A stretch of DNA of 47,710 nucleotides from Patescibacteria group bacterium (GTDB taxonomy: Bacteria; Patescibacteriota; Patescibacteriia; UBA2591; JAQWAS01): the NCBI GenBank assembly GCA_028707495.1, contig JAQWAS010000003.1, positions 1-47,710 on the forward strand. Reading direction: 5' to 3'. Shown piece after piece: positions 29,692 to 40,611 of the stretch (position 1 is its first letter; each line of letters starts with the position of its first letter). The notes under the pieces are model-generated. The model had not been told where the DNA came from. It did not search any database and saw only the letters and a program-made list of their open reading frames with translations. The position numbers were made by a program, and so were the translations under genes.

Positions 29692-31284
29692 ATGGCTGAA
29701 AAATATAAAAAAGCAATGTTGGTGATCATGGATGGAGTGGGCATTTCGGAAGAAACCAAAGGCAATGCCGTCAAAAAAGCCAAAACGCCCTTTTGGGATA
29801 ATTTATGGCGTGATTATCCACATGGCGTCTTACAAGCCTCAGGTGAGGCTGTGGGTTTGAATTGGGGTGAAATGGGAGGCTCGGAAGTTGGCCATATGAA
29901 TATTGGCTCGGGGCGGGTGGTTTATCAAAGTTTACCTAGAATCAATCGGGCAATTATGGATGGAACTTTTTTTACCAATGAAGCTTTGATGCAAGCCATA
30001 GCGCATGCTAAAAAGTATGAATCAAAAATTCATTTGATAGGTTTATTGAGTCCAGGTGGGGTGCACAGTACTATCGAACATTTGCATGCTCTATTAAGAT
30101 TTTTAAAGCAAAGTAAAATTAAAAAAGATGATGTGTGTGTGCATGGTTTTACTGATGGTCGGGATGCACCATCAGACAGTGGTTTGATGTTTTTGCGTAA
30201 ATTGGAGGACATGTTTAAAGAAGTTAAAATTGGTAAATTAGTTTCATTAATTGGACGTTATTATGCTATGGATAGAGACGAGCGTTGGGAAAGAACCGTT
30301 CAAGCTTACAATTTATTAGTTCAAGCTCAAGGTGAAATGTTTAAGACAGGCGAAGAGGCTTTAAAAAAATCTTATGAACAAAAAATTACGGATGAATTTG
30401 TGACAGCCAAAGTGATTGCTAAAAAAGAAAAAGATATCATTAAGATTGAAAAAAATGATGTGGTTATTTTTTACAATTTTCGAGCTGACCGCGCTCGACA
30501 ATTAACCAAAGCTTTTGTTTCAGATGATTTTAAGGGATTTGAAAGATCTAAAATTTCTAATTTATTTTTTGTAACCATGATGAAATATGATGATAATTTG
30601 CCAGTCAATGTGGTTTTTGAGCCTCAAATTGTTAAAGAAACATTAGCTGAAGTTGTCTCTCGAGCTGGTTTAAAACAATTGCATATTGCTGAAACTGAAA
30701 AATTTCCTCATGTGACTTTTTTCTTTAATGGTGGTCAGCATCAACCTTTTAAAAATGAAGATCAAGTTAAAATTCCTTCGCCTCGAGTAGCAACTTATGA
30801 TTTAAAGCCAGAAATGTCAGCCGACAAAGTGACAGAAAAAATAATTCAGGCAATTAAAAAAGACGATTATAGCTTTATAGTGGTAAACTATGCCAATGGT
30901 GATATGGTTGGCCATACAGCTGATTTTAAAGCTACAGTCAAGGCTTTGGAATTTTTAGATAAGTGTCTTAGCCAGTTAATCCCAGTCGCTCAGGCTCATG
31001 AGTTTAAAATATTTTTTACAGCTGATCATGGTAATTGTGAAGAAATGATTAGTTTACAAAGTGGCAAAAAATTAGCTGAACATTCTAATAATCCAGTACC
31101 TTTTGTGGTCGTCGATGAAGATAAAAAACCTCAATTGGGTGAAGATAATGTGATAGAACAGGGCGTTTTAGCTGACGTGGCACCAACCATTTTAAATATT
31201 ATGGGTCTAAAAGTGCCAGAAGAAATGACCGGCCGAAATTTATTGGTCAAAAGAAAATCCGACGAGATTCCAGAAGTGATGTAG
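29692..31284 (+). CDS. gpmI: 2,3-bisphosphoglycerate-independent phosphoglycerate mutase, copy 1
   Basis: A 530-residue iPGM interconverting 3- and 2-phosphoglycerate with Mn2+. All key residues are visible: VIMDGVG (metal Asp), Ser64 in GGSEVGHMNIG (phospho-Ser nucleophile), His in GGVHS, Asp/Arg in TDGRD, Arg residues in GRYYAMDRDERWER and NFRADRARQLT, Lys in ETEKFPH, DMVGH and TADHGN (metal ligands), and the last His in EHSNNPVPF. It appears catalytically intact. It lacks the canonical Asn before the nucleophile (Gly-Ser-Glu instead of Asn-Ser-Glu). Glycolytic neighbours pgk and eno follow. Confidence 0.94.
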   Translation: MAEKYKKAMLVIMDGVGISEETKGNAVKKAKTPFWDNLWRDYPHGVLQASGEAVGLNWGEMGGSEVGHMNIGSGRVVYQSLPRINRAIMDGTFFTNEALMQAIAHAKKYESKIHLIGLLSPGGVHSTIEHLHALLRFLKQSKIKKDDVCVHGFTDGRDAPSDSGLMFLRKLEDMFKEVKIGKLVSLIGRYYAMDRDERWERTVQAYNLLVQAQGEMFKTGEEALKKSYEQKITDEFVTAKVIAKKEKDIIKIEKNDVVIFYNFRADRARQLTKAFVSDDFKGFERSKISNLFFVTMMKYDDNLPVNVVFEPQIVKETLAEVVSRAGLKQLHIAETEKFPHVTFFFNGGQHQPFKNEDQVKIPSPRVATYDLKPEMSADKVTEKIIQAIKKDDYSFIVVNYANGDMVGHTADFKATVKALEFLDKCLSQLIPVAQAHEFKIFFTADHGNCEEMISLQSGKKLAEHSNNPVPFVVVDEDKKPQLGEDNVIEQGVLADVAPTILNIMGLKVPEEMTGRNLLVKRKSDEIPEVM

Positions 31285-33577: not shown

Positions 33578-34726
33578 ATGTTAAAAAAAATTCAGCAAGT
33601 CAAAAATTTAAAAAATAAAACAGTTTTATTAAGAACTGATTTTAACGTACCATTAAAAAATGGTCGAGTTGAAGATGATTATCGAATTGCAATGAGCTTA
33701 CCAACGATTCAGTATTTAATTAAAAAACAAGCTAAAATAGTTTTAGTTTCTCACTTGGGTCGACCTGATGGTCAAATTAAACCTGAATTAAGTTTACAGC
33801 CGACGGCTAAAAAATTGTCTCAACTTTTAAAACAACCAGTTTTTTTTATTAATCAAAATATTGGTCAAGAAGTTAAAAATAAAATTAAAGAATTAAAGCC
33901 AGGTCAAATTTTAGTTATAGAAAATATTCGTTTTCAACCGCGCGAAGAAAAAAATTGTCAACGTTTAGCCAAGCAATTAGCTAGTTTAGCTGATATATAT
34001 GTAAACGACGCTTTTGCCGTGTCTCATCGAGCAAATTCATCAGTCAGCGCGATTACACAATATTTACCAAGTTATGCCGGTTTATTGATGCAAGACGAAA
34101 TTCAAAATTTAAATCAAGCTTTAAAACCACAACATCCGGCGGTGGCTATTCTAGGCGGAGCCAAGATTTCAACCAAAATTAAATTAATTGATAATTTATT
34201 AACTAAGTTTGATAAGGTTTTATTAGGTGGCGCTTTGGTCAATAATTTTATTCAAGCAGTTGGTTATGAAGTTGGTCAGTCAATAGTTGATACAGATTAT
34301 CAAGTTAAAATGAATAAATATGATTCTAAAAAATTAATTTTGCCGATTGATGTTAAAGTTAAAACTGCCAACAATCGAGCGATAATTAAATATATTAATG
34401 AGGTTGGTAAAACAGATAAAATTTTAGATTTAGGACCTAAAACAGTGGAAAATTTTAAAAAAGATATTCAAAAAGCTAAAACCATTGTGTGGAATGGGCC
34501 ATTAGGTTATTTTGAAGATATCAGATTTAAACAAGCTAGTCAGGAAATTGTTAAAGCCATTTTAAAAAATAAATCAGCTCATATCATTATTGGCGGGGGA
34601 GAAACAGTTTCATTATTAGAATCAAAGCAAAACACATCAAAAATTTTCATTTCAACTGGTGGCGGAGCTATGCTTGAATTTTTAGAGGGCAAGGTTTTAC
34701 CAGGTATTAAGCCTTTAATAAAATAA
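33578..34726 (+). CDS. pgk: Phosphoglycerate kinase
   Basis: A 382-residue PGK making ATP from 1,3-bisphosphoglycerate. N-domain motifs are VLLRTDFNVPL, SHLGRPDG and ENIRFQPREE. C-domain motifs are AILGGAKISTKIKLIDNLL, VWNGPLGYFE, IIGGGETVSLL and the final STGGGAMLEFLEGK. It is slightly shorter than the usual 390-400 residues. It is followed by a terminator and then by eno. Confidence 0.96.
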   Translation: MLKKIQQVKNLKNKTVLLRTDFNVPLKNGRVEDDYRIAMSLPTIQYLIKKQAKIVLVSHLGRPDGQIKPELSLQPTAKKLSQLLKQPVFFINQNIGQEVKNKIKELKPGQILVIENIRFQPREEKNCQRLAKQLASLADIYVNDAFAVSHRANSSVSAITQYLPSYAGLLMQDEIQNLNQALKPQHPAVAILGGAKISTKIKLIDNLLTKFDKVLLGGALVNNFIQAVGYEVGQSIVDTDYQVKMNKYDSKKLILPIDVKVKTANNRAIIKYINEVGKTDKILDLGPKTVENFKKDIQKAKTIVWNGPLGYFEDIRFKQASQEIVKAILKNKSAHIIIGGGETVSLLESKQNTSKIFISTGGGAMLEFLEGKVLPGIKPLIK

Positions 34727-34823: not shown

Positions 34824-36062
34824 ATGGCAAAAAATAACAAAATTACTCAAATTAAAGCCTTGGAAATTTTAGATTCTAGGGGCAATCCGACTGTTCAAGT
34901 CACTGTTTTTAGCGGTAAAGAAAAGGCCCGGGCTTGTGTGCCTTCTGGTGCCTCAACTGGTATACATGAAGCCGTTGAATTAAGAGATGGCGACAAAAAA
35001 CGTTATCATGGCAAAGGCGTAACCAAAGTGATTAAAAATATTGAAACCAAAATAGCGCCTAAATTAAAAAATAAATCTTTAGATCAAATAGATAAGATTT
35101 TACTTGAATTAGATAAAACAGACAATAAATCCCAACTCGGCGCTAATGCTATTTTGGGTATATCTTTAGCTAGTGCACGTTTATCCGCTAGACTTAAAAA
35201 TAAAACTTTATATCAATATATCAACCAGGTTTATAAATTTAAAAATAAAACTACACTACCCATACCAATGTTTAATGTTATCAATGGTGGTCAGCACGCT
35301 GATTCTGGTTTAGATGTTCAGGAATTTATGTTGGTGCCAGCTGGTATTAAAAAATATCATTTACAACTTAGAGCTGGCAGTGAAATTTTTCATACTCTAA
35401 AAAAGGTTTTAGCTAATCAAAATTTAAGAACAGCGGTCGGTGATGAGGGTGGTTTTGCACCTAAAATTAAAACCAATACTCAAGCTTTAGATATTTTAGT
35501 TACTGCAATTAAACAGGCCGGTTATCGACCGGGTAAAGACATTTTTATTGCTTTAGATGTGGCAGCTTCAGCTTTTTATCAAAACGATAAATATAGTTTT
35601 GAAGGCAAAAAAATTTATAGTGGTGATTTAATAGAGATTTATACCCAATGGTTAAAAAAATATCCGATTATTTCCATTGAAGACGGTTTAGCTGAAGATG
35701 ATTGGACGGGTTGGCATTTATTAACGCAAAAATTAACTAAAAAATCTATGTTGGTTGGTGATGATATTTTTACCACGAATGTAGATAGATTAAAACACGG
35801 TTTTGAAATGAATGTGGCCAATTCAATTTTAATTAAACCTAATCAGATTGGTACACTTAAAGAGACCATTGAGTGTATTCAATTAGCTCAAAAAAATAAT
35901 TATAAAGTTGTTATTTCGCATCGTTCAGGAGAAACAACAGACCCATTTATTGCTGATTTGGCGGTGGCTAGTGGAGCGGAATTTATTAAAACTGGTGCGC
36001 CTAATCGAGGTGAGCGAGTAGCTAAATATAATCGTTTATTAGAAATAGAGTTTAATTATTAA
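34824..36062 (+). CDS. eno: Enolase
   Basis: A 412-residue enolase (2-phosphoglycerate to phosphoenolpyruvate). Motifs in order: ALEILDSRGNPTV, VPSGASTGIHEAVELRDGD, SQLGANAILGISLA, FNVINGGQHADSGLDVQEFM, VGDEGGFAPK, metal site ALDVAASAFY, ISIEDGLAEDDWTGW, VGDDIFTTN, ILIKPNQIGTLKET, and catalytic-site VISHRSGETTD. It heads a run of nine closely spaced genes (gaps 3-10 bases) reaching 45040, with no terminator between them. Confidence 0.97.
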   Translation: MAKNNKITQIKALEILDSRGNPTVQVTVFSGKEKARACVPSGASTGIHEAVELRDGDKKRYHGKGVTKVIKNIETKIAPKLKNKSLDQIDKILLELDKTDNKSQLGANAILGISLASARLSARLKNKTLYQYINQVYKFKNKTTLPIPMFNVINGGQHADSGLDVQEFMLVPAGIKKYHLQLRAGSEIFHTLKKVLANQNLRTAVGDEGGFAPKIKTNTQALDILVTAIKQAGYRPGKDIFIALDVAASAFYQNDKYSFEGKKIYSGDLIEIYTQWLKKYPIISIEDGLAEDDWTGWHLLTQKLTKKSMLVGDDIFTTNVDRLKHGFEMNVANSILIKPNQIGTLKETIECIQLAQKNNYKVVISHRSGETTDPFIADLAVASGAEFIKTGAPNRGERVAKYNRLLEIEFNY

Positions 36063-36072
36063 TTTTTTTATT

Positions 36073-37632
36073 GTGCAAATCGTAAAATCAAAATTATCAA
36101 AAGCGGTTTTAATTATTCTGGATGGTTGGGGAATTGCTCCAGCCGGTCTGGGCAACGCCATTAGTTTAGCTAAAACACCGACGATGGATCAAATTAGTCG
36201 TGATTTTCCTTATACACAACTCATAGCGCATGGTCAACGGGTAGGCTTGCCTGACAATCAAGATGGTAACTCCGAAGCGGGGCACATGAATATTGGCGCT
36301 GGTCGAATAGTTAAACAAGATGCCGTTTATATCAATCGGGCAATTAAGGATAAAACTTTTTTTAAGAATACAGCCTTCAAAGAAGCTTTAAAGCACTTAA
36401 AAAAATATAAAACTCGTTGTCATATTATGGGTTTATTATCTGCTTCAGAGAGCGCCCATGCTGACCCGGGTCATTTAAAAGCTTTATTAGAATTAGTACG
36501 GCAGAATAAAGTTAAAAATACTTTTTTACATTTATTTACTGACGGACGTGATTCGTCACAACATGAAGCCTTAAATTTAATAAAAAAGTTAGAAAAAGAA
36601 TTAAAGCCTAACGAACAAATTGCCTCGATTACTGGACGTTATTATGCTATGGATCGTAAAAAAAATTGGCATAATATTAAGTTAGTCTATAATGCTTTAG
36701 TTTTAGGTCGGGGAGATAGGGTGCATAATTCTCAAGAGGCTATTACGAAAGCTTATAATCGGGAGCAAACAGACGAGTATATTTTGCCAAGTGTAATTGT
36801 TAAGCGTAATAAACCATTGGGTTTAATTCAAGATGATGATATTATTATCTTCTTTAATTTAAGGTCAGATCGTGCTCGTGAATTAACAAAAACTTTTGTT
36901 CAGCCGAACTTTGAGGAAATTAATCCACACAGTTTTAAGCGCCAAAGAATTGCTCGCAATATCCGTTTTGTAGCGATGACTGATTTTGGTCCAGATTTGC
37001 CATATATTCTAACTGCTTTTCCGAGTCGTGATTTACAAAAAACTTTGCCAGTATTATTAAAAAACAAAAAGCAACTTTATTTAGCTGAAGCTGAAAAATA
37101 TTCACATATGACTTATTTTTTCAATGGCGGCTATGCCGAGCCAGTAGCTGGAGAAAAAAGAGTTAGAATCGCTTCGCCAGATGTATCAAGCTATGACCAA
37201 CGGCCAGAGATGAGCGCTTTTGAGATTAAGGATTATTTAATTCAAGTTATGAAAAAAAATATCTATGATTTCACGGCTGTCAATTTTGCCAATCCAGACA
37301 TGGTGGGTCATACGGGCAATTTGCAGGCAGGGGTTAAAGCTGTTGAGAGTGTGGATAAGTGTTTAAAAGATATTATTAAACAAGCCTTGAAACAAAATGT
37401 AAGTTTAATTATTACCGCCGATCACGGTAACATTGAGGAAATGATAAATTTAGAAACGGGTGAAATTGACACAAAACATTCGATTAATCCAGTACCGTTT
37501 ATTTTAGTTGATAAAAATTTTAAGAAAAAAAAGTTAAATGCTGGTATTTTAGCCGATATTGCGCCAACACTTTTAAATATTATGCATGTCGAACAACCCA
37601 AATTAATGACCGGGAAAAATTTATTAATATAG
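36073..37632 (+). CDS. gpmI: 2,3-bisphosphoglycerate-independent phosphoglycerate mutase, copy 2
   Basis: A 519-residue iPGM starting with GTG. It keeps every expected catalytic residue: ILDGWG, Ser67 in NSEAGHMNIG, a histidine in ESAHADPGHL, TDGRD, GRYYAMDR, NLRSDRARELT, EAEKYSH, NPDMVGH, TADHGNIEE and KHSINPVPF. The loop around the substrate-binding His is one residue longer than in copy 1, and the sequence differs widely from copy 1, so the two are old paralogues or one was acquired. It lies 10 bases after eno and 3 bases before the degenerate third copy. Confidence 0.94.
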   Translation: MQIVKSKLSKAVLIILDGWGIAPAGLGNAISLAKTPTMDQISRDFPYTQLIAHGQRVGLPDNQDGNSEAGHMNIGAGRIVKQDAVYINRAIKDKTFFKNTAFKEALKHLKKYKTRCHIMGLLSASESAHADPGHLKALLELVRQNKVKNTFLHLFTDGRDSSQHEALNLIKKLEKELKPNEQIASITGRYYAMDRKKNWHNIKLVYNALVLGRGDRVHNSQEAITKAYNREQTDEYILPSVIVKRNKPLGLIQDDDIIIFFNLRSDRARELTKTFVQPNFEEINPHSFKRQRIARNIRFVAMTDFGPDLPYILTAFPSRDLQKTLPVLLKNKKQLYLAEAEKYSHMTYFFNGGYAEPVAGEKRVRIASPDVSSYDQRPEMSAFEIKDYLIQVMKKNIYDFTAVNFANPDMVGHTGNLQAGVKAVESVDKCLKDIIKQALKQNVSLIITADHGNIEEMINLETGEIDTKHSINPVPFILVDKNFKKKKLNAGILADIAPTLLNIMHVEQPKLMTGKNLLI

Positions 37633-37635
37633 TTT

Positions 37636-39201
37636 ATGAATAAAAAAATAAATAATTTTGTAAGTTTAATTATTTTAGATGGTTGGGGTATAGCTCCTGA
37701 TTCTAGGGGGAATGCGATTAGTTTAGCGCAAACACCTAATTTTGATTATTTACTAGCAAATTATAAAACTTTGACTTTAAATGCAGCTGGCGAAGATGTG
37801 GGTTTATTAAATGGTCAACCAAGCACAGCCGAGTATAGCTATTTAAATATTGGCGCTGGAAGGAAAATTTATCAACCACTGATCGAAATTGATAACGCTA
37901 TTAATAATAAATCGTTTTTTGTTCACAAAATTTTACGTAAAGCTTTTTTAGATATAAAAAAAAACAATCAGACGTTGCATTTGATTGGTGTTATTTCAGC
38001 ACAAAGAAAAATTAGTTCTTTAGATCACTTATATGCTTTATTAATCATGGCCCAGAAAATAGGTTTGGCTAAAGTTAATTTGCATTTAATTTTAGATTTT
38101 TATCAAGCTGAACAAGAGAATGCTCTGCAATTAATTGATCAAATTCAAACCGAATTAAATATGTTAGGTTTAGGTCAAATTTGTTCAATAAGTGGTCGAA
38201 ATTATGCTTTAAATGACAATAAGGAATGGGGAAAAACTAAAAAAATTTATACGACCATTTTTGAAGGCAAAAGTGAAAAAGTTTACAATCGAGTTGATAA
38301 AGCTATTAATAGTTTCTATGCTCAAGATATTTTTGATGAAAACATACCGCCATTGATTATTGGTGATTATGATGGTGTCCAGGATGGGGATGGGGTCGTA
38401 TTTTTTAATTTTAATCCACAGGGTTTATATCAATTAGGGAGAGCTATCTGTCAGTCTAATTTTAATTTGTTTCAACGTAATCATTTTTTTAAAAAAATTA
38501 ATTTAGTTACTTTAACCAACTATGGAAGCGAATTCAAGGCTAAAATAGTTTTTGATCGATCGGAAATAAAAAATACTCTAGGCGAAATTATTAGCCGACA
38601 AGGTTTAAAACAATTACATTTGACCGAGACGGAAAAATATATTTATACAACGTATTTTTTAAATGGTCGGCGCTTAGAACCTTTTAATAACGAAACAGAT
38701 ATAGCCGTTACCTCACCTTATTTGGATGACTATCAACAAAATCCACAAATGTCAGCCGTTAAAATAGCCAAAAAAATAGCTAGTTTGATTTTGGAAAATA
38801 CTTATGATTTTATAGCTATAAGTTTAGTTAATGCTGATATGGTGGGACATAGTGGTAATTTAGAGGCGACAATTAAAGCGATTGAAGCGATTGATCGAGC
38901 CTTGGGGATTTTGGTTGAAATTATTCAATCACAAAGGGGTCGAGCTATTATTCTTGGTAGTCACGGCAACGCCGAAGAAATGATTAAATTACAAACTGGC
39001 CAAATTGATCAAGAACATTCTTTAAATCCAGTCCCAATGATTTTTTTAGGTGCTGATTGGAAAAGGGATGATAGTTTAGTTAATTTATTGGATTTAAGTT
39101 TAATTCAACCAGCTGGTATTTTGGCTGATGTCGCGCCAACAATTTTAAAAATTATGGGAATTAAAACACCCCAAGAAATGACCGGCCATTCTTTAATTTA
39201 A
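37636..39201 (+). CDS. Degenerate iPGM paralogue, probable pseudoenzyme
   Basis: A 521-residue, full-length iPGM homologue with an intact frame but a disabled active site. Aligning by the NIGAGR motif, the nucleophile serine is Ala65 (TAEYSYLNIG instead of NSEAGHMNIG). The substrate His is lost (QRKISSLDHL). TDGRD has become LDFYQ. The Arg after GRYYAMD is lost (GRNYALND), and the two Arg of NLRSDR are lost (NFNPQG). The metal Asp of TADHGN is Ser (LGSHGN). Retained are the first Asp (ILDGWG), DMVGH, the His of HGN, the Lys of ETEKY and the last His (EHSLNPVPM), so one metal site may survive. The fold looks conserved while phosphotransfer should not work. It probably forms part of the copy 2 transcript. 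Confidence 0.88.
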   Translation: MNKKINNFVSLIILDGWGIAPDSRGNAISLAQTPNFDYLLANYKTLTLNAAGEDVGLLNGQPSTAEYSYLNIGAGRKIYQPLIEIDNAINNKSFFVHKILRKAFLDIKKNNQTLHLIGVISAQRKISSLDHLYALLIMAQKIGLAKVNLHLILDFYQAEQENALQLIDQIQTELNMLGLGQICSISGRNYALNDNKEWGKTKKIYTTIFEGKSEKVYNRVDKAINSFYAQDIFDENIPPLIIGDYDGVQDGDGVVFFNFNPQGLYQLGRAICQSNFNLFQRNHFFKKINLVTLTNYGSEFKAKIVFDRSEIKNTLGEIISRQGLKQLHLTETEKYIYTTYFLNGRRLEPFNNETDIAVTSPYLDDYQQNPQMSAVKIAKKIASLILENTYDFIAISLVNADMVGHSGNLEATIKAIEAIDRALGILVEIIQSQRGRAIILGSHGNAEEMIKLQTGQIDQEHSLNPVPMIFLGADWKRDDSLVNLLDLSLIQPAGILADVAPTILKIMGIKTPQEMTGHSLI

Positions 39202-40076: not shown

Positions 40077-40611
40077 ATGAATTTAGATTATCAAATTTTT
40101 AAAATAATTAATGATTTAGCAGAACGAAATCCAATTTTAGATTATCTGGGGATTTTTAATGCTAAATATTTGATTTGGGTTTTTGCCATCTTACTGATAG
40201 TTTTGGTTTTATTCTATAAAAATAAACAAAAACATAGAATAATTTTGAGGGTTTTAATTTGTTGTTTAATGTCAATTATTAGTGTTTTGGCGATTAATTA
40301 TTTGACATCATTATTTTATTTTAGACCCAGACCCTTTGTTGATCATGGAGTTAATTTATTAATTCAAATTAATAATTTAAGTAAATCATTGCCATCTAAT
40401 CACACGGCTATAGCTATGACAGTGGCCTTTTGTTTATACTTTTTTAACAAAAAAAATAGGCTATATTTTAATTTTTCTAGCGGTTTTGATTGGTTTAGCC
40501 AGAATTTTTGTTGGTGTACATTATCCCTTAGATATAATTATGGGTGGTCTAATTGGTTGGTTGGTAGCTTTATTGAATTGTAAAATAATAATTAATTATC
40601 TTAAAATATAA
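40077..40611 (+). pseudogene. PAP2-family membrane phosphatase, frameshifted in an A8 tract
   Basis: The first frame (40077-40583) encodes four hydrophobic segments and the first two PAP2 motifs, YFRPRPF and SLPSNHTA. It then runs into an unrelated end (FDWFSQNFCW...). The +2 frame encodes the missing third motif and last helices, ARIFVGVHYPLDIIMGGLIG, ending at a TAA at 40609-40611. The switch falls at a run of eight A (40449-40456), and removing one A restores one open frame of about 177 residues. The restored end lies 4 bases before pcm, matching the tight spacing in this operon. It could be a sequencing error, a real mutation, or a slippage site. The family removes phosphate from lipids such as undecaprenyl or phosphatidyl phosphates. 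Confidence 0.8.

Follow-up and report, generated by a model that had tools for sequence, protein, structure and literature searches.

A type-2 iPGM homologue of Patescibacteria with 8 of 15 catalytic residues lost, probably kept as a folded pseudoenzyme in a conserved glycolytic gene slot

Introduction

Why would a bacterium with an 857 kb genome keep a full-length gene for an iPGM homologue whose active site has largely been lost, directly behind an intact copy of the same enzyme? The question is raised by the window analysed here, the whole of a 47,710-nucleotide stretch of contig JAQWAS010000003.1 (assembly GCA_028707495.1, Patescibacteria group bacterium), which encodes three iPGM homologues, referred to below as A, B and C (Table 1). 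A first-pass annotation of the bare sequence had described C as a full-length frame without catalytic chemistry and had proposed a selected non-catalytic role, either as a regulatory partner of B or with a new ligand or substrate. Pseudoenzymes as such are a known kind of protein, and some are kept as regulators or scaffolds. Our literature searches found no paper on an iPGM pseudoenzyme and nothing on tandem iPGM genes in Patescibacteria, and those parts of a survey of bacterial PGMs (PMC2964296) that pseudoenzyme-type terms lead to deal with broken pseudogenes only. As far as these searches reach, the iPGM pseudoenzyme, the recurrent loss at one slot and the domain-deleted forms described below are new.

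Table 1. Features of the window that bear on the analysis of C (positions are those of the window).
Feature	Position	Strand	Remark
A, extra intact iPGM	29692..31284	+	about 50% identical to type 2, shortened loop only
pgk	33578..34726	+	conserved neighbour of the slot
eno	34824..36062	+	conserved neighbour of the slot
B, intact type-1 iPGM	36073..37632	+	tandem partner of C
C, full-length catalytically degenerate type-2 iPGM homologue, 521 aa	37636..39201	+	ATG start
Ala65 codon	37828..37830	+	replaces nucleophile Ser62; alignment to Geobacillus iPGM
Ile126 codon	38011..38013	+	replaces substrate-binding His123
Tyr156-Gln157 codons	38101..38106	+	replace Arg153-Asp154
Asp194 codon	38215..38217	+	replaces Arg191
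Asn260 and Gly263 codons	38413..38424	+	replace Arg261 and Arg264
Ser442 codon	38959..38961	+	replaces metal ligand Asp444
Type-2-specific loop insertion, about residues 475-492	39058..39111	+	WKRDDSLVNLLDLSLIQP

Results and discussion

The 15 catalytic sites were compared with those of the Geobacillus iPGM (1EJJ numbering), with residue roles that we take to be the ones established for that enzyme. A and B are intact at all 15, while C lacks eight, the nucleophile Ser62 among them, and retains D12 (D15 in C), R185 (R188), K336 (K334), D403 (D401), H407 (H405), H445 (H443) and H462 (H461). The metal site D403/H407/H462 is complete, the site D12/S62/D444/H445 has lost S62 and D444, and among the substrate residues H123, R153, D154, R185, R191, R261, R264 and K336 only R185 and K336 are kept. 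The full-length frame, every substitution named in the first-pass annotation and its single retained metal site were all recovered in this alignment, in which the losses of the catalytic Ser and Arg residues stand. In the type-1 and type-2 reference copies of the class the signature of all 15 residues is perfect in 130 of 132, and C reads DAIYQRDNGKDHSHH where 130 of the 132 intact copies read DSHRDRRRRKDHDHH. Conservation in C is lower at catalytic sites (7/15) than at other invariant residues (36/46; Fisher p 0.027), and lower again by comparison with invariant residues more than three positions away from catalytic ones (26/28; Fisher p 0.0013). These counts indicate that the loss in C is targeted to catalytic residues, and C is predicted to be unable to work by the known iPGM mechanism.

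The fold seems to have been spared. Over its full length C matches the Pfam families Metalloenzyme (203.6 bits) and iPGM_N (150.7 bits), and its score against NCBIfam TIGR01307 (451 bits) lies above the cut-off of 330.65. An AF2 model of C built on a 68-row homologue alignment, which was used because prediction from the single sequence gave a pLDDT of 37, reached a pLDDT of 93.5 and a pTM of 0.89 and has the two-domain iPGM fold, with a TM-score of 0.91 to the S. aureus iPGM, a similarity that is expected given that the input alignment consisted of homologues. C thus resembles the solved iPGMs (Geobacillus 1EJJ, S. aureus 4MY4) in full-length homology, domain architecture, one metal site and family score, but differs from them by replacement of the nucleophile, of one metal ligand and of most residues that bind the substrate. 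It also resembles the S62A laboratory mutant of the Geobacillus enzyme (PDB 1O99), which has the same Ser62 to Ala exchange and a kept fold, whereas C is of natural origin and has seven more catalytic changes. With essential catalytic residues lost and the fold conserved as far as can be predicted, C appears to be a pseudoenzyme.

Relatives that bear names (Kerfeldbacteria, Magasanikbacteria, Kuenenbacteria, Falkowbacteria) put the genome in Patescibacteria, probably in class ABY1. In the window, pgk and eno directly precede B, C begins 3 bases past the stop of B, and mutM follows C. Two iPGM genes were found at 47 of the 60 relative loci, mostly adjacent, type 1 before type 2, and usually downstream of pgk and eno. 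The tandem position, which the first-pass annotation had wanted checked in related genomes, is ancient. The 13 loci with a single iPGM, some of them cut by contig ends, all have type 2. B falls with type 1 in a 95-row tree, in which types 1 and 2 are separate clades (support 100 and 99) and C sits on a long branch of no firm position; in a reduced-set tree C joins type 2 with support 98, a placement for which the AU test does not reject the alternative grouping of type 1 with B and C. We assign C to type 2 because of its tandem position, its best matches, which are type-2 copies, and its type-2 loop. C is accordingly placed, on gene order and similarity, in an old class-wide slot: pgk, eno, type-1 iPGM, type-2 iPGM. 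The third homologue of the window, A, lies upstream of pgk and is nearest to type 2 (50-53%); it might be a relocated type-2 copy or the result of a transfer.

The type-2-specific loop, about 12 residues long, lies ahead of the GxLADxAPT motif. It is absent from type 1 (B) and from the Geobacillus enzyme, and is common to C (where a few of its residues are missing), the intact type-2 copies and the other dead copies. The loop (DLS) was considered as a mark of pseudoenzymes only, which was rejected since intact type-2 copies carry it too. Of seven segments, six have a lower information content in the dead set; the exception runs from NPVP through the loop to APT and is better conserved in dead (2.66 bits) than in intact type-2 copies (2.34 bits), a value inflated by relatedness because the f62/f26 clade dominates the dead set. 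No other part of the dead proteins is conserved as well as the loop. The cyanobacterial iPGAM (PMC12077085), which is an active enzyme, as C is predicted not to be, likewise has an additional loop that follows the NPVP strand and precedes the GxLxDxAPT motif; there the loop and the C-terminal segment modulate control by PirC, the loop has been swapped for TKKGI, and it also raises manganese affinity. In the Geobacillus enzyme, TKKGI stands at the position of the type-2 insertion. We regard the likeness as a parallel of position, not as demonstrated homology, and, given the effect on manganese affinity, a metal-binding role would be an alternative reading of the loop in active type-2 copies.

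Among the 215 sequences first collected there was no other full-length copy resembling C, a scan of genome contigs for a closer orthologue gave a best match of 46% and none degenerate at full length, and a scan of viral contigs gave no relatives. Degenerate type-2 copies of other kinds, reached through weak matches in the search of the class, were found in several lineages. In f26 there are dead copies of 488-552 aa and of about 300 aa; those of f62 measure about 300 aa and cleanly lack the iPGM_N transferase domain (Pfam: Metalloenzyme only); the f48 copy (G060) has 512 aa and S62C, with the other metal ligands kept and substrate residues lost. In f76 (G136) the order is pgk, eno, an intact type 1 and a domain-deleted type 2 of 281 aa, and in f19 (G031) pgk, eno, an intact type 1 and a type 2 with H123E, R261G and D444S, a separate copy lying elsewhere. 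The mild case of f63 (G082; R153V, R261K) has an extra intact copy. Domain-deleted homologues (about 280-330 aa) were noted at L253-L264 and L323-L327 (f62), L251 and L252 (f26) and L321:6463-7305 (f76); they lack the transferase domain and most catalytic residues and lie downstream of pgk-eno. Almost every dead copy of f26, f48 and f62 adjoins pgk, and as a rule eno immediately precedes it. No eno turned up at the locus in four dead-copy cases; the gene most regularly present next to the dead copies is pgk.

In a pgk+eno tree that covers 73 loci, a minimum of four changes is required to explain the dead state, and well-supported (starred) branches force three or more of them; f76, f26 and f62 fall into one clade, and the window belongs to a starred clade together with 11 intact relatives. 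Loss of catalysis in this slot thus appears to have happened four or more times and along different routes. Orthologues with the same substitutions as C, which the first-pass annotation had suggested looking for, did not turn up: those of the order are intact, and other lineages lost catalysis separately, with different substitutions. Private decay of a duplicate had been considered for C and was rejected once dead copies turned up in other genomes.

These copies also bear on whether C has adopted a new substrate or reaction, for which its one complete metal site (Asp401, His405, His461), together with Lys334, Arg188 and His443, might serve. The retained site makes a different chemistry possible for C, which has kept Asp15 as well. 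L218 and L221 keep D403, H407, H445 and H462 with D444 changed to Thr, and PhpG (NF038358), a weak match of B, is a homologue family with altered chemistry. We nevertheless consider new chemistry quite unlikely, since C has lost the nucleophile and most substrate arginines and since further dead copies of the slot, domain-deleted ones included, lack most metal ligands and have no new active-site pattern in common. The earlier suggestion of a new ligand or substrate is weakened by the same domain-deleted relatives.

Selection on the dead proteins could be estimated in three close pairs with measurable dS. The domain-deleted proteins gave dN/dS values of 0.10, 0.10 and 0.20, which are approximate since dS is high (0.9-2.0), and the enolases of the same pairs gave 0.065, 0.088 and 0.070; the dead proteins are therefore under purifying selection. 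C has no close relative, and we infer selection on it from its open frame, targeted loss and codon usage. Its 521 codons contain no stop, where a neutral simulation yields about eight already at 80% identity and the closest homologues of C are only 44-46% identical, and its codon usage matches that of neighbouring genes (RSCU r 0.96). The possibility that C is a duplicate in decay and due to be lost would fit its fast evolution (terminal branch about 1.4 in the 95-row tree, where the median is 0.4), its redundancy with A, B and an aPGM, and the restriction of catalytic losses to C among the three copies. It is nonetheless highly improbable in view of a frame still open at 44% identity, the kept distant invariant residues, the codon usage, the confident fold and the dN/dS values of dead copies elsewhere. 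The selected non-catalytic role proposed at the outset is strongly supported by the comparison with relatives, and these values and the pLDDT of C agree with it.

Loss of catalysis raises the question of which protein does the reaction. Strong dPGM matches (TIGR01258, GpmA type, E <=1e-48, full length or split in two; weaker, fragmentary matches were left out of the count) occur in 20 of 381 genomes of the class. Eighteen of the 20 have no intact iPGM, their only homologue being dead, and all 18 keep this type-2 copy beside pgk, most of them also after eno; the exceptions are G299, which has no iPGM match, and G256, which has a strong iPGM match too. Some f62 genomes combine a full-length iPGM match elsewhere with the short dead protein. 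The window genome has no dPGM; its candidate active PGMs besides C are A, B and an aPGM (G000:C7:3262-4443, L276; TIGR00306, 430.7 bits, above cut-off), by which it is predicted to be buffered. Taken together, the distribution of dPGM, iPGM and aPGM suggests that catalysis is lost where another PGM exists and that the type-2 protein stays. An exception to this replacement pattern is G060 (f48; 97% complete), in which no dPGM, aPGM or intact iPGM was found above cut-off. With its degenerate type-2 copy (L247:6252-7787), this genome either has no PGM step or has an unrecognised enzyme; PGM went undetected in several Parcubacteria clades in a study of CPR metabolism (PMC7304191).

The same distribution speaks to the idea that C regulates or stabilises B in particular, as in other enzyme-pseudoenzyme pairs. 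The 3-base spacing, the class-wide tandem and the pairs of G136 (f76) and G031 (f19), in which type 1 is intact and type 2 dead or damaged, agree with such a partnership, which we still consider unlikely: the dead protein persists in f26, f48 and the listed f62 genomes, where no intact iPGM, and hence no type 1, was found, and a lone iPGM at the locus is type 2. Solved bacterial iPGMs are, moreover, described as monomers. Since the partner has to be present also where type 1 is lacking, B is excluded as the general one; the first-pass proposal of a regulatory partnership may hold in the window genome and fails as a general role.

The reading we prefer, at roughly two chances in three, is that C is a type-2 tandem iPGM that lost its mutase chemistry and is kept as a folded pseudoenzyme with a second, non-mutase role. 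The second role of type 2 is probably protein binding that survives catalytic loss, since the protein outlives its catalytic site, loses a domain, stays in the pgk-eno operon and keeps its loop. Type-2 iPGMs would carry a job independent of catalysis, in which a partner protein might be bound via the face of the phosphatase domain that bears the loop, and this binding may modulate or organise the lower glycolytic steps (PGK, enolase, or a PGM). Where another PGM supplies the activity, the type-2 protein could then survive without catalysis, much like pseudoenzymes kept as regulators or scaffolds, with which C shares lost catalytic residues, a predicted kept fold and, to judge from the dead homologues of its slot, selection. 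The wider proposal, that type 2 is bifunctional and that its non-catalytic job as a subunit for docking or regulation in lower glycolysis outlived the activity in several lineages, where the protein was reduced as far as a core of about 300 residues that bears the loop and lacks the transferase domain, is tentative, and we would put it a shade below an even bet.

In this slot nature has run an experiment: a core enzyme of glycolysis has lost its chemistry again and again while the gene stayed, usually with a replacement enzyme in the genome. This pattern points to a hidden second function of the iPGM lineage and makes that function testable. It also has a practical side, as equivalog models call dead proteins active mutases, C included with its score well over the threshold, and such mis-calls distort metabolic reconstructions of uncultured bacteria.

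Other observations

Several further copies deserve mention. In Falkowbacteria bin.303 (L078, 1886-3474) the type-1 copy is broken up into a pair of ORFs, and the adjoining type-2 copy is intact. Tandem iPGM pairs also occur outside Patescibacteria, in MAGs labelled Actinomycetota (L126, L147, L167); the two genes of L126 are sisters in the tree and hence probably stem from a separate duplication. In the window itself, a PAP2-like ORF at 40077-40583 has a C-terminal part that looks garbled, possibly by a frameshift or an assembly error. Finally, an iPGM homologue of 317 aa without the transferase domain (L322:6301-7251; G074, f61), alongside which no pgk or eno was found, retains both sets of metal ligands as well as Ser62 and is possibly a stand-alone phosphatase.
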